DNA of 64,000 bases, taken from Cornus controversa (taxonomy: Eukaryota > Streptophyta > Magnoliopsida > Cornales > Cornaceae). Below are positions 15,701-24,700 of the stretch, in pieces. The notes beneath the pieces are model-generated. The model ran no database searches. It was not told the origin of the DNA and worked only from the letters and a program-made list of their open reading frames with translations. The DNA lies in assembly GCA_026545225.1 (NCBI GenBank), contig CM048849.1:52150836-52214835 (forward strand), given 5' to 3'. How positions within the stretch are numbered: the stretch's first letter is position 1; each line of letters begins with the position of its first letter. Made by a program: the position numbers and the translations under genes.

Positions 15701-18700
15701 CATCCCGTTTCGTTCACTTTATTATAATTGTTTATCAAAGAGTAAGTCTCCAGATCACCTCACTTAATCAAAGGGCTTAGTATCTATAACCCTTTCTGCT
15801 TATAATTAAGTAACTTTTGGTAAAAGTTGCAGTGTCTGTTGTCTCTCTTTTCCATAATGTTCTTTAATTTTAAGTGTAATCTTAATGATTACTATTGCAT
15901 TATGATGATGTTAAACCTGCATTACAACATTATTTATTAGAATGATTTTTGGATGCAGGCTTCAGATGGGGACCACATTGATAGATTGATATCTTGCCTG
16001 TACATGGCTCTTCCTTTTTTTGTGGTATCTTCTATGACTAATGTTGGCTTCTACCTTTCTAATTAATAGTGTGTTTTTCTATTCAACTGAACCCCTATGT
16101 TGGTTGCAGCGGGGTGCATCCAATAGCAAGTTTATCATCTATTTGAACAAACACATTTTGCCTGTTTTTGATAAGGTAATATTGCACCTACCATGTCAAA
16201 TTGTAAGTTTATCCTCCTTTTTAATATTTTGAAATCTTTTGCCATTTGCCTTCTTACAGGACACGCTTTTTATGTTCATAAACTTCGATAGCTGTCTTTA
16301 AGTTGGATATGCCCCTTGTTCTCTCTTAAATTTCTTTAACTTTGTTGTCCTTGCTTATTGTATCAAGAATCAATAGAAATTTATCATGCTGCATAATATG
16401 ATACAAGGCTTTCAGTTGACCTTAGTCTGATGACTCTAATGGTAATGTTCATGATTTTAAAGTGCTTATATGAGTTGTGTATGCACAAACTTTACAAAGT
16501 TACCCACAAGTTAGTATGCCCCAACCCAACCCTGATACCGTGTGTATAGATATTGTAAATGAAGAATCTAAAGACTGAAGTAACTGTGCTTGACACATGA
16601 CAGACACCAACATTCTATGGATTCTTGTAAGTGGACAATTTAACAGTATGACGTTGTTGACCTCATTAAGACATTGCACATACATGTATGATGGAATTTA
16701 CTATTCTGATTAGTGCTTGATCTGAAGAAGTTATACAATTGATGATATGTATTACATTAATATGGTATGCATGATGCATCTCATATTTCTGAACTTCATT
16801 TTCCAAAGCCTTCAAATTGAATCCAAGTTCCCCCATGGCCCCAGCTTAACCTGAAGTTGTCAAAATTGCTTAATTGCTTGCTGTATGTTGGGCGCCCTGC
16901 TATTCCTGAACTAAAATAAGAAGATTGTTTGAATTTAGAAAGAGAACAATGAGTTCTAATTTAATTTTTCCACACACTCTCCCACCCCAAGTGATGTAGG
17001 ACGAGATATGAGTCGCATGCATGAGTTGCACGTGCTTCGGCTCTATTTTTGGAAAAGGGGCAAAGATAGATAATTAGGGATAATTTTTAGTTAATATTAT
17101 TATTATATTAGTAATGTTTTTATTTTAGGGATATTTTCGTTATTTAATATTTTAGGGTTTTATTTTAGTAGTAGGATTTGATTAGGGTTTTCCTTGCTAC
17201 CTATTTATATGTTGGTTCAGGCATTGTGAAAGGGAGACTTTGATGATTGAATATTATTGAGATTAAATATTTCTTCCTCCTATTTCTTCTTCTCTCCTAA
17301 TCTTCTTCTTCTCTCTTATTCTCCTCTCTCATTCTCTCTCTTCTTCTCAATATATTTTAATATCAAAGCGCCCCTACCTGTCCCGCATCAATTGGTATCA
17401 GAGCGAAGATCCATACTACTTCTGTTAGCATCTACTGTTCACAACAATAGTAAACCTACCATTCATCCATCTGAAAACCCTAACAGCCGCCCTAAACCTA
17501 CTGTTCATCCATCTGAAAACCCTAGCAGCCGCCCCTAAAGCCCCTGTTTATCCATCTGAAAAACCCTTGCAGCCGCCTCACATCATATTCCTCACACCCA
17601 ATCCCTAAACCTACTGTTCATCTATCTGAAAACCCTAGCAGCCGCCCCTAAAGCCCCTGTTTATCCATCTGAAAAACCCTAGTAGCCGCCTCACATCATA
17701 TTCCTCACACCCAATACCTAAACCTACTGTTCATCCATTTGAAAACCCTAGCAGCCGCCCCTAAAGCCCCTGTTTATCCATCTGAAAAACCCTAGCAGCC
17801 GCCTCACATCATATTCCTCACACCCAATCCCTAAACCTGCATCATCTTCAACCCACACACAAAATCAAACCCTAGCCGCCACTACCACCATCTCCAAACA
17901 AACCCTAATCCCTCTTTACCAAACCAAAAACCCATTGATCACAACCTTTGCAATTACATAAAATCAAGACCACATCAAACAAGTCCGAGCACTCAAAACA
18001 AGTGCAAGCAACAGCCTTCATTGCAAGCTAGAAGGCAGTAGAAGAACCACATCGTCGCCAGAATTCTCTCTAGACATTGTCGTCTTCCTCTTCAAAGTAT
18101 TGCTGGAGTTTTCTCGGGCAGTCACTGGTCGTCGCCGTTGTCAAAGCTTCCTGTCGTGGTAGAGTGTAAATCTGCAGAAGTCTCAAGTCCCTCTGTTTGT
18201 TTCCGAAAGAAGCATATTTTATAAAAGAAGCCAGATTTGGCTTGTTTGGTTAGAGATTCAATACTGATCGAGTTCTGGAACCAGTCCAGAACTGAACCAG
18301 TTCAGCAAAAAAAAAAAAAAAAGAACAGAAGGAACATTAGTCGTCATCGCCGAAATCTGCTACAAGTCCTTTGGTTTTAAAACCATCTGATGCATCATTT
18401 GAAATACTGGTTGAAAACCATCGACAACTGCAAATCACAGCCATGGTCGCAGAACAGAAAGTAAACAAACAGCGAAGAGGCAACGAGAAGACTTTGGCTT
18501 AACACTATTCACTGCATCATCTTCGGTCTTTCAACTCTTTCCGTTTGTCATCGGACTTCCCTCGCCTTGCCGGAGCATCCATCGATCGTCGCCTTCGTCG
18601 GAACTGTCAACCGGAGTTTTTTGGTTGTTGCTTGGAGGTCAGTACGGATCGCTAAGGTTCTGTTGTTTGTTTGGGAAAGTTGCAGAATATTTATAAAATA

Positions 18701-21700
18701 AAAAAAAAATGACACAGTAGACCTGCGACCCAACTTGGCCAATTGACCCAATCTGTGACCCGAATTGTTTTTGGGCCCAGTTTTACTTCTATTTTGTTTG
18801 GCCACAGCTTTAAAACAGCAGCCCAAGCTTTCAATCAGATAGGACTATTTGTTTGGCCCAATATCTATGCCCCAGCCTAACCCAGAATCATATTCAGTTC
18901 TGTTTGGTTACAGTTTTAGCACTACTCTGGTTTTGAAACCTGTTTCAGAACTAAACCAGTTCTTTTGGAAACCAGTTCAGCAAAAAAAAAAAAATCCGGA
19001 TTTGTATCCGGGCCAGAATTGTTTGTCTTGGCCCATTCCAATATTGCTCCAGCCCAGCAGGCCCGGTTCAAGTTTGGCCCAATCTTAGATTGCTTCAAAG
19101 TAGACCTATTTGGAAGCAAGAACAGAGCTAGGCCAGTTCGAAAACCAGCCCAGAACTGAACCTGTTCTGTTCAGATCCAGTTAGCCCATTCTTCAAACAA
19201 AAACAAAAAAAAAAAAAATACCAGATTGTGGATGCAGATTGTGGACTCACTTGGGAACATTCAATACTTGGGTAATTGCTTTGGACTTTGGTAAAGGTAC
19301 AATTACTTCACTTGAAATTGCAATTAGTACTTTTAATTATTTGGTTAGTCATGAAATTTGCAAAAAGGCCCTAATTGAGCCCATTTGATTATTGAACCCA
19401 AATATTTACTTTAATTCCTCTTTTACTTCTTTCCATTGCCTCTTTATTTCTTTCCATTATTTATAATATTTTATCTTGCTATCACTATATCCACTTTTAT
19501 TTTTATTTCAAAAAAAAAAAAAAAGATTCATTTTTATTTTTCCTCTTGGATTTGTACCTAAACACTCTAGTGCATACGTTTTGACATAATCACTTTAATT
19601 GCATTCAATTCTTTGATTTTGTATTGTGTTAGTTTATAATTTAGTTTACTTAATTCATTTTGAGTCCTATGTCGGCATTTTTCTCAACCTTTCTTATGTC
19701 TATATCATTCTTTTGAGACCACCATGACCCTCGAAGACAACATTATTTTTTGTCCCCAATGGTTATGTTCTAAGTCAAGTAAGACTAAGATTGTTGAGCG
19801 TAGACCAAGTTTTCTATCACATGAAAATCAAACTGATTGGTGTGAAGATGAAAGAGAGATAAAGAGAGTTGTTGAAAGGGAAGTAGTCCAACAATTCCTA
19901 AAAATTAGAAATAGGCTTCTTATGCTTCCCTCATCCATTCATGAACTTCTTAGCCTACTTGATGAGTTAGAACTTCTTTTATGCGAAGTGGGGCAAGATC
20001 CATCTACACTAATTCAAAATGCAATATCGCAGGCAATAGAGGTCTTACTTGTAAATGACTTATTCAGACACTCAAATATAGATGTGAGAATTTCAGTTGT
20101 ATGTTGCCTTAATGAGATTTTGAGAATTGTTGCGCCAAATGAACCTTTTAGTGATGAACAACTAAATGAGATTTTTCTGTTAACTGTTATGTCTTTTGAG
20201 AGGTTGTCTTATATTTCTGATCGTTGCTACAGAAAAGCAATTTCAATGCTTCACACTGTTGCAAAAGTCAAGTCATGCTTGGTCATGCTTGATTTGGATT
20301 GTAATGAATTAATTATTGAAATGTTTGAACACTTTTTAAAGGGAATAAGGTATTTTCACTCAGATAGTGTCTTTTCATCCATGGAGAAAATTATGACTCT
20401 TGTACTAGAGGAAAGCGACTATATTTCAGTGGAACTACTTCATCTTCTTCTAACTAGTGTTAAAAAGGAAAGTCAAACTATTTCACCTCAATCTTTCAAG
20501 TTAGGAGAAAAGGTCCTAAACAACTGTGCTACAATTCTTAAGCCGTGTCTTTTGAAGGTTATGCAATCTATGGGCCTTTTGTTCACTGATTTTGCAGAAG
20601 TAGTCACTTCTATTTGTCCACTTGAAAAGGAGTATTTTGGGAGTAGTCACATCTCTGATAGGGTGTCTTGTGAAGAAATTGGTCAATGTGCTCCTCAGTC
20701 AGTAGTTGCCCTTGATGACTGCAACATTGATCATGTTGACTACATACTTGTTGAAGCAAATGGGAGCGTTGTTACACATTATGAGTCATCCACTTCCATT
20801 GTATCAAATAAAGATGTGAAGTACAATAGTAGTTTCTGGAAGACACTTTGGACATTGCTAGGGACAAATCTAAATTTTCCTTTTGCATCATATCCTCAAA
20901 CTAATAGGGAAATTGAGATCGTTAACCAAGGTCTAGGAAAGTTGGTTAGTTATCTTGTAAGATTGCATCTAGACACTTGGGATTTGTTTTTGCCTATCAT
21001 GGAGTTTGCTTATACTAGTTTGACTAATCAGTGTATTGGTAGTTGTTCTTTTGAGATTATTTGCCATTCTTTACCATGCCAATCCATTGATTATAATCAC
21101 CCACCTCCATATATGTATTTGCTTGAATTCCTTGATTCTTTTGTCCAGCTTGTCCATGATTTTCATGCCGATATGCGATACGAAATTGTTTTGAGTAATA
21201 AAAATTATGAACTTGCTACATATGCTCACAATAGGAATCATGAATGTTTTGAAGGAGATTTTGTTATAATTTGTGCATTACCGCATCCTTATCTTAAGAA
21301 CTCCTTCCATATAAAACAGGGTCATATTGTCAAACTTTTCCACATCAATCATAAGTCAGGACCTAATGCATATTTCTTTGACTGGTCATTAGATTTGAGT
21401 ACTAATTCAATTTTTGATGTGGAGTATTTGATGCCTAACCGTGGTACTTTTGAAGCACCTGTGTTATTATCTTGTGTTCGTACAGGTGGAGCTATTTTTT
21501 TTTCAACATCAGCACTTGTTCTTCCATTCTATCAGCCTTGGTTTTTGGACAGGGTAGAGGATGTTCTTGACCATCAGAGTGATCTACTATGGCTACTATG
21601 GAAGTACTACCCCTCTTCTAATTTCACATGGAGTACAAATGAGTTTTGCCATGTTGATTCAAGATTTTTCGAGCAACATTATCCGCTTCACTCTTCGGAG

Positions 21701-24700
21701 AAGAGTTCTTCTCAGTCGGGGAGAATTGATGTAGGACGAGATATGAGTCGCATGCATGAGTTGCACGTGCTTCGGCTCTATTTTTGGAAAAGGGGCAAAG
21801 ATAGATAATTAGGGATAATTTTTAGTTAATATTATTATTATATTAGTAATGTTTTTATTTTAGGGATATTTTCGTTATTTAATATTTTAGGGTTTTATTT
21901 TAGTAGTAGGATTTGATTAGGGTTTTCCTTGCTACCTATTTATATGTTGGTTCAGGCATTGTGAAAGGGAGACTTTGATGATTGAATATTATTGAGATTA
22001 AATATTTCTTCCTCCTATTTCTTCTTCTCTCCTAATCTTCTTCTTCTCTCTTATTCTCCTCTCTCATTCTCTCTCTTCTTCTCAATATATTTTAATATCA
22101 AAGCGCCCCTACCTGTCCCGCATCACCAAGTTAATATATATTTTTGGTTCAGTTCAACATCTACAATAGAGGATGGAGTTGTGTGAAATTCCATACTGTT
22201 AGGGTTGTTGCTCCGGATGTTGTTCCCCCGGATAGTATCATTATATTGTTTTCTTTACTTGATTGGTTGTTTTATGCCCCCAAGATAGTATAGCTATCAG
22301 TATGGAGAACAGGGATACACACACCCATCCACACAAACACTGACACGTGTGTTTGTGTAGGGGGTATTGCCTGGGAGCACTGGTTATATAGTTCAAGCTG
22401 TCAGTATTTAATGCAAATAAATCCAGAAGTTAGATCTGTCCCCTGTACCATCCTAGGATACCAGATTGATGGGACTGGCACAGTATGATGGCAAACACAT
22501 GCATACGAAAGAAAATATAATTAATATTTTAAGATGACTGAAAAACCAAATGAATTTTGATATGAAAGTTGGTTAGAGGTGTTAGTCATCATCATCATCA
22601 TTCTTGCCTTAATCCCATATGAATGGGGTTGGCCACATGAATTCTCTTTTTCCATTCTTTTCTATTACATGCCATCTCCTCTCTAATATTTAACTTTTTA
22701 AAATCATTTCTAATCATTTCAATCCAAGTTAATTTCGGACGCTCTCTCTGCCTCCTACCCTCTATGCAAATTATCCTTTCTCTTCTCACCGGGGCATCTA
22801 TAGGTCTTCTATGTATATGTCCATGCCACCCAAGTCTACTTTCTCTAATCTTGTCACAAATAGGTGCTACAACTAGTTTCTCTCTCACATTTTGATTTGA
22901 AATCCTATCTTTTCTAGTCACTCCAATCATCCATCTTAACATCCGCATCACATTAAAGGTGTTAGTAAACAATATAAAGAATCTGACATTTATGAGATTT
23001 ACTCACTTCACAAAACAAAAGGTATATATCCTTCAGAAGCTTTTGAAAAACTTCTCATGACAAATTACTAGGGATTTCAAGCGTTCCTCTGTCCTAAGGA
23101 ATTCCTTAGGAGCTAGCAGTAATTATGTTTCAAAGATGGATTTCTTTGCCAATTTGTTCTATATTATTTCTTAGATTTTTTTTTTTCTAACCATGATTTT
23201 GCTTTTCAGCTTCCTGAAGAACGCAAAGTAGACTTGCTCAAAAACCTTGCCGAAAGTTCACCTTACACCATTCCACAGGACTCGCGACAAATTCTTCCCT
23301 CTGTTGTTCAGTTGTTAAAGGTATGCATTTTGTTTTCAATATAGATTACATGCCGATTGTTCGTCATTGAGATCTTAAAACTACCATTTTGTACTGTAAC
23401 ATATAAATATTGATCAATAGAATAAGATATAACATGTTATGCGCTTTTATATTTTACTTTATTCCTTTTGGTATATTCCTGTTGTCAATCTCAACCATTA
23501 GAATTCATGTATGTACATCAACTCTGTCCCATATCATTGTTTTTTTTCCCTCAATCTGAATTCTGAGTCTAAGGTTTTGCAATTATATTAATGGAAGAAT
23601 TTGAAGCTTTCTAGAAGCAGGAAACCTTTTTGTCTAGAGGTTTTTATATTATGGTTTTCTTTGTCTCATGATATATTCTTCTTTGTCATAGAAGTACATG
23701 CCTCGGAGAAAAACTGGAGAAGAGATGAACTTTACTTATGTTGAGTGCTTGCTGTACACATTTCACCATTTGGCTCACAAGGTTATTAATACTGTGAAAA
23801 CCTACCATATTTGCATATTTCACACTAGTCTCTTCTGTTGAATGCTTATTTTCTCTTTAACTCATACAGGCTCCAAATGCCACTAATAGTTTATGTGGTT
23901 ACAAGATAGTGACTGGCCAACCATCAGATAGGCTTGGGGAGGATTTCTCAGAGTCTTACAAAGATTTCACTGAGAGGTAATATGTTCTTTCTACTACTAC
24001 ATTTTCTCTATTTCTATAAGTATATTTTCCACTATAATTTTCCATGGACTTAGTGCTATGCCTACGTGATTCATAGACTCTTGATTGTTAATAAATAAAA
24101 AAAAGAACAAGGAAAGAAGAACTGGCAATATTTTCTAGCTTAGTCCTCAAGAATAGAGACAAAATGTCATAATTTAATCAGTGAAGCAAATTACAGGACA
24201 GTTAGGAACCTACCTTGGGTTACATTAACCACAAGGAATAAATTGCCTTAATAAAGGAAAGAAGAGAGAAATGGAAAAGATAGGATATAGGTTAAATTGC
24301 ATAAATGCATATGTTATTTAGGCATCACCTAATTAAGTAGACATTTTTCCTTTTGTTTTCTTCCCCAGACCGTGTCAAGGGTTAAATGGACCTAATAAAC
24401 TCTTAGATTTAAATGGTTTTACTTGAAATGTGCTTTTAGATAATATAAAGCTCTATGCTTTGTGACTGCTAACTATCATGATTTGAAACTCCTACAGAAT
24501 CAGAACTCAGAACCAACATGTGCCATAGGTGGTGTTGTGGTGATCGAGTTATATAGATTCTTAATGCCCTAGGACAGAGGCCAAACACTTGCTAGTGAAA
24601 TTTCAGTTTACACTGTTGTTGGAATAATTGGTGACTTCAGAAATAATAAACCATGTTTATTGCAAAGGAAGGTCTACAACCATGTTAATTATAATTGTTA

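Follow-up and report, generated by a model that had tools for sequence, protein, structure and literature searches.

The 64,000-nucleotide stretch analysed here (the window; Cornus controversa, GenBank assembly GCA_026545225.1, contig CM048849.1, positions 52,150,836 to 52,214,835, or C5:52150836-52214835 in our naming) contains a complete long terminal repeat (LTR) element at 16992–22125. Its only long open reading frame, 694 codons from ATG to stop at 19724–21808 on the plus strand, joins a piece of the host protein PDS5 to the C-terminal part of an integrase. Codon models suggest that this protein was under selection while its lineage transposed. We tentatively interpret it as a selected, protein-coding PDS5–integrase capture in a non-autonomous Ty3/gypsy-type element, which would act most likely as a decoy in RNA-directed DNA methylation (RdDM).

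The chimeric frame had been proposed in an earlier note on this DNA, and both of its halves were confirmed, the PDS5 half by profile and structure matches and the integrase half by a structure match. Residues 74–278 (Pfam limits; 19943–20557, plus strand) are the N-terminal HEAT/ARM domain of PDS5, matching Pfam profile PF20168 with E = 1.7e-42 (145.8 bits against a cut-off of 27) over only positions 2–205 of 1053, which is the first fifth of the profile. The same stretch matches solved PDS5 chains (5frp, 1.7e-16; 5hdt, 1.8e-15), and its similarity to host PDS5 exons extends to about residue 298. These matches rule out a chance hit to an unrelated HEAT protein as the source of the assignment. 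Residues 355–568 (20786–21427, plus strand) correspond to the end of Ty3 Gag-Pol (7q5b), with 2.5e-7, or 7e-8 when searched alone, and Pfam applied to this integrase part alone gave no match. The Ty3 match starts near the end of the catalytic core, which is absent from the element. The last 82 nt of the frame, which encode the C-terminal end of the chimera, are also the first 82 nt of the 3' LTR, a feature that the earlier note had missed.

At three host loci (L072, L073 and L074+L075), the domain's close relatives are split over several exons. Introns with GT..AG ends interrupt the coding sequence at positions corresponding to residues 147/148, 209/210 and about 251, and near residue 80 there is an acceptor site. 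None of these introns is present in the element, indicating that a spliced mRNA was captured and supporting the template-switch-type capture of host mRNA suggested previously. It is a host-gene transduction of the Bs1 kind, with host coding sequence lying inside the LTRs without the host introns. Exon by exon, the nearest host genes are 38–69% identical in protein to the window frame. In trees the captured parts group with L072, L073 and L074, apart from L069, and beyond the domain the frame of L074+L075 turns charged and low in complexity, with an AT-hook-like PKKRGRKPNS stretch, and does not go on with HEAT repeats. We take L072–L074 to be of the short PDS5C/D/E type, under an A–E naming that we assume; on protein and tree similarity, the host gene closest to the captured domain thus looks like a PDS5C/D/E-type gene rather than a canonical PDS5A/B. 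Two other candidate donors were rejected: L069 (C5:66546263-66552720), a PDS5A/B-type gene on a long branch with only 26% identity, and L070 (C10:21465105), with 38–41% identity.

The window copy is one of many. A search of the 771.7-Mb genome with the whole protein listed 90 matches, and among the matches listed the full stop-free frame stands at six loci on six contigs (C5, the window itself, and C3, C8, C10, C1 and C2) with 96–100% identity, so that five other loci keep the frame and it is not an artefact of one copy. None of the three refuting outcomes that the earlier note named (an unrelated HEAT protein, an intronless donor, disruption of all other copies) was observed. Five of the six intact-frame loci have identical LTRs; across the eight LTR pairs compared, five are identical and the others differ at 1/401, 9/399 and 16/402 positions. 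The window element itself, with two 399-bp LTRs showing 0 differences and CCAAG on both outer sides, moved very recently, as the earlier note had argued from its apparently identical LTRs. Its description as a recent chimera holds for this insertion and is too narrow for the family. Searching with a divergent protein from another locus (L027) gave at least 138 matches at at least 93 loci, at least 88 of them besides five intron-bearing PDS5 genes; the figure of 88 is a lower bound, since scoring covered 135 of 195 candidates, and only some of the loci were verified as elements. The PDS5-bearing elements are therefore a family with older and divergent members, not one recent accident.

Reading 30 of these loci (L009–L038) showed that the captured domain comes in two versions. 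The majority of the loci are like the window (version A), while version B is represented by five loci (L022, L027, L030, L031 and L035) with 45–55% protein identity to the window where aligned (three aligned). In L022, L027 and L035 the integrase part is missing, the LTR-proximal tail coming after the PDS5 part, and L027 retains an open frame of 290 aa. Three further loci (L018, L033 and L038) are mosaics: relative to the window, L038 has 52–60% identity over residues 60–140, 64–69% at 160–180 and 77–95% from 200 through the integrase part, a profile indicating that the PDS5 segment was exchanged within one element backbone. In a tree of residues 80–209, version A groups with the host gene L074 (support 96.6/97) and version B falls outside, and for this segment the nucleotides reject a single origin of the two versions (approximately unbiased test, p = 0.007). 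Two captures from different host paralogues are the better-fitting, unproven account on these alignments; exchange with another PDS5-bearing element, instead of two host captures, may also have produced the difference.

Selection on the frame was estimated with a custom codon model that fits a separate omega to each branch class. For version A we used 15 rows, excluding five near-identical young copies (L010–L013 and L015) and three older ones (L025, L026 and L034). Over residues 1–640, omega on internal branches was 0.478, different from 1 at p = 6e-5. The PDS5 part alone gave an internal omega of 0.50 (p = 0.032) and a tip value of 0.964, not different from 1, and for the integrase part, to which the three mosaics were added, the values were 0.43 on internal branches (p = 0.0045) and 0.647 at the tips (p = 0.054). 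Four wrong-frame controls, shifted by one or two bases, yielded internal values of 0.93, 1.10, 1.30 and 1.05, none of them different from 1. When the PDS5 segment was fitted for both versions together (four host genes and 13 element rows drawn from the 30 loci), omega was 0.113 for the host genes and 0.391 for internal branches after capture (p = 9e-4); tip values were 0.605 for version B (p = 0.017), and 0.724 for version A and 1.09 for the mosaics, neither different from 1. The plain reading of these estimates is that lineages still transposing probably kept the protein and that inserted copies decayed afterwards. The suggestion that the frame was intact at the last transposition and is likely translated gains support here, because the frame appears to have been under selection.

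Most older copies carry stops or frameshifts, and the stops stand mostly at deamination-prone codons. Among 25 A-type and mosaic loci, 55 codons have a stop in at least one copy, and 28 of these 55 are CAA, CAG, CGA or TGG in the window frame, which holds 36 such codons in all (28/36 turned to stop in at least one copy). Stop positions common to at least two copies fall at these codons in 22 of 26 cases, often with differing stop codons at a single site. This bias fits repeated deamination of methylated cytosines, as in methylated, silenced DNA; part of the sharing may instead be inherited broken frames.

How might such a protein serve the element? In Arabidopsis, PDS5C/E are described as having a role in RdDM; one paper presents PDS5C as the H3K4me1 reader (PMC11519323), and a meeting report that refers to Takei 2024 has transposable elements de-repressed in pds5c/pds5e mutants (PMC12859917). 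The fusion protein, if made, would boost the element's own spread. The captured domain would retain the protein–protein interface of a PDS5C/E-type protein without its chromatin-reading C-terminal half, and a fragment that binds partners yet cannot read chromatin could act as a decoy against the host protein in RdDM. Competition with the PDS5C/E-type protein would then weaken silencing of the element. The earlier note had thought of interference with cohesin. Its PDS5 assignment stands; given that the host relatives appear to be of the short PDS5C/D/E type, RdDM becomes a natural target besides cohesin, which would not be the only one. A stronger form of the proposal, which we regard as doubtful, is that the lineage took the PDS5C/E-type RdDM interaction domain at least twice from different paralogues, fused it to the integrase tail and kept it as a dominant-negative anti-silencing factor, which would make it the first known LTR element to turn a stolen RdDM component against RdDM itself.

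Other explanations account for parts of the same evidence. In the main alternative, the fusion was selected for a step of transposition, with the PDS5 domain serving as a chromatin or cohesin tether on the integrase tail that guides cDNA to its target or to the nucleus. The two parts share one frame and are both constrained, and the tail of Ty3-type integrases is where targeting modules sit in chromoviruses. We consider this somewhat unlikely: a tether would have to act without the integrase part in the version B copies L022, L027 and L035, and the catalytic core is missing from the element. A capture without function, whose frame is still open for no reason other than the recent age of the intact copies, would agree with their 96–100% likeness, with the five pairs of identical LTRs and with the mostly broken state of older copies. 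Such a passenger does not predict constraint on internal branches in the true frame and none in shifted frames, or an open 290-aa frame at L027 in the second version, whose protein is 45–47% identical, and we judge it improbable.

Selection could also have acted on the RNA, through small RNAs against host PDS5 genes or through host-like sequence that the silencing machinery spares. Small interfering RNAs from captured sequences and camouflage by captured fragments are already known ideas, discussed in a review on how plant elements capture genes (PMC13317346). Selection on RNA does not predict a synonymous bias in one frame only, and at the exon-wise identity seen with the nearest host genes, sequence-matched silencing of the parent PDS5 gene, another suggestion of the earlier note, becomes less likely; an explanation at the RNA level is accordingly one to which we give still less credence than to the passenger. 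Finally, the six intact frames might reflect one or a few copies that became a host gene, the others being their relatives. We find this very improbable, because the intact copies lie on six contigs with LTRs and seven young copies have perfect target-site duplications, as expected of transposing elements and not of one retained locus.

Several results weigh against the interpretation as a selected RdDM decoy. Omega at the tips over residues 1–640 was 0.794 (p = 0.013), so that decay there is not purely neutral, and the stems leading to each version were not significantly below 1 (A, 0.38, p = 0.086; B, 0.52, p = 0.36), these being long branches that mix host time and element time. A common origin of the two versions was not rejected on amino acids (p = 0.088) or on codon positions 1+2 (p = 0.17), and nucleotides of the segment 210–298, in trees from which L035 was excluded, gave no decision (single origin, p = 0.51). 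A Tudor query matched the PDS5A/B-type locus C5:66571711 and none of L072–L074. Structure prediction without an alignment returned a helical model with a mean predicted local distance difference test score of 45.6, which is not usable. The anti-silencing step itself would follow solely from the family of the donor gene.

The architecture of the element is otherwise that of an LTR retrotransposon, with paired LTRs, TG..CA ends and a 5-bp target-site duplication. The 5' LTR (16992–17390, TGATG...CATCA) and the 3' LTR (21727–22125, by LTR comparison), both on the plus strand, are flanked by the CCAAG duplication at 16987–16991 and, by flank comparison, at 22126–22130; the duplication was perfect in all seven young copies examined. 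Just after the 5' LTR, reading the sequence reveals a primer-binding-site-like TGGTATCAGAGC (17393–17404, plus strand), which we take to be the complement of the 3' end of initiator-methionine tRNA; the motif, in part as variants, also lies behind the 5' LTR in the other young copies. The next stretch, about 2.3 kb long (17405–19723, plus strand), is a leader in which a Pfam scan recognised no protein domain and which includes three copies of a 113-bp tandem repeat (17491–17838). Before the 3' LTR, a purine-rich, polypurine-tract-like stretch was read at 21718–21726 (plus strand), and the 23 nt ending at 21726 recur without change at the end of one related element (L078). An Rfam search over 16900–22200 gave no match.

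Pfam applied to the main frame and to all 28 leader stop-to-stop frames of at least 45 aa found neither gag nor reverse transcriptase (RT); two leader matches below the cut-off (12.4 and 14.8 bits) were taken as chance. The element thus lacks the gag and RT of an autonomous retrotransposon, so it should be non-autonomous and must be moved by another element. Of a Ty3/gypsy-type pol, only an integrase C-terminal part is left, which matches Ty3 and five open frames of 1673 aa. These five frames (three on C6, one each on C7 and C9) hold the integrase region at their end, with 43–44% identity to the window integrase part.

The locus L066 (C1:57.57M) has no PDS5. Its LTR and integrase part share 89% and 71% identity, respectively, with those of the window element, and its N-terminal part matches the 1673-aa frames at 60–63%. 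Pfam gave no match for this N-terminal part; we presume it to be a protease region, and it shares the 1673-aa frames with the integrase. The 1673-aa frames indicate that full-length relatives exist, which could supply the missing proteins to the PDS5 element in trans. L066 and L077 (C1:57567950-57572347), with their relatives, are products of internal deletion and make up a sister family; there, another part of pol, probably protease, is joined to that integrase tail, and the capture of PDS5 may have taken place on this platform. The first 50 residues of the chimera (19724–19873, plus strand), which by protein alignment are common to the divergent subfamily B (PQWL..SK..., WCEDERE), found no source in the spans examined of host PDS5 genes or of L066/L077, and a look for host exon 1 was equally fruitless.

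Two near-identical integrase matches with the same stops lie at C14:2063594-2064478 and C5:3245107-3245991, possibly on a duplicated or haplotypic contig. An LTR-like relic on the minus strand (L069:7097-7392; C5:66550596-66550891), located between two exons of the host PDS5A/B-type gene, is about 76–77% identical to the element LTR over 273–287 aligned bases. Elsewhere in the window, pieces of a glutamate-receptor-like gene cluster occupy 30512–57662 on the minus strand, with ANF_receptor and Lig_chan domains in four of the five frames scanned; several of these pieces are apparently interrupted.

Capture of host genes by LTR elements is a known kind of event; what is unusual about this one is selection on the captured domain, the swapping of versions and the donor family's connection with silencing. 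Among non-autonomous LTR elements, LARD, TRIM and TR-GAG elements have LTRs and a primer site without a complete gag-pol and are moved in trans; they lack a coding region or keep gag, whereas the PDS5 element keeps a host-derived domain. LTR elements often contain captured gene pieces, which are as a rule seen as decaying cargo, whereas the PDS5 piece appears to have been constrained during transposition. Constraint together with a version swap in the same backbone makes the question of whether a retrotransposon uses what it steals directly testable.

Among the titles and abstract openings listed in searches of open-access PMC, none reports a capture of PDS5 by an LTR element. The word 'cohesin' does not occur in the gene-capture review (PMC13317346), nor PDS5 in a domain screen of 121 angiosperm genomes (PMC9289625). 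That screen used RT as its marker and would therefore miss elements like the one in the window, which have none.

Among related systems, Bs1 of maize (PMC13317346) is likewise an LTR element with intronless host-gene pieces in one hybrid frame; it holds pieces of three unrelated enzyme genes, whereas the window family has a domain from one chromatin-protein family, version exchange and constraint in many copies. Gypsy elements of Phalaenopsis with an AlkB-type N6-methyladenosine (m6A) demethylase are likewise a Gypsy lineage in which a domain of host type has become fixed, with a presumed action on host surveillance, but those elements are giant and have full coding capacity, while ours lacks gag and RT (PMC9289625). 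The plant mobile domain, the MAIL1/MAIN domain found on plant Gypsy elements and Mutator-like elements, is a further case of a domain from a transposon-silencing protein carried on Gypsy elements; it is a different domain, for which the section on it describes neither dominant-negative logic nor paralogue exchange (PMC9289625). Closest in proposed function are VANC and KIU of the VANDAL elements, transposon proteins that undo the silencing of their own family, KIU with a captured host domain (PMC13317346, PMC12859917). VANDAL is a DNA transposon and VANC recognises sequence motifs, and anti-silencing is shown there but only proposed for the PDS5 element. If the link from PDS5C/E to RdDM holds for the captured domain, the element would be a retrotransposon counterpart of VANC, built from a host silencing protein.

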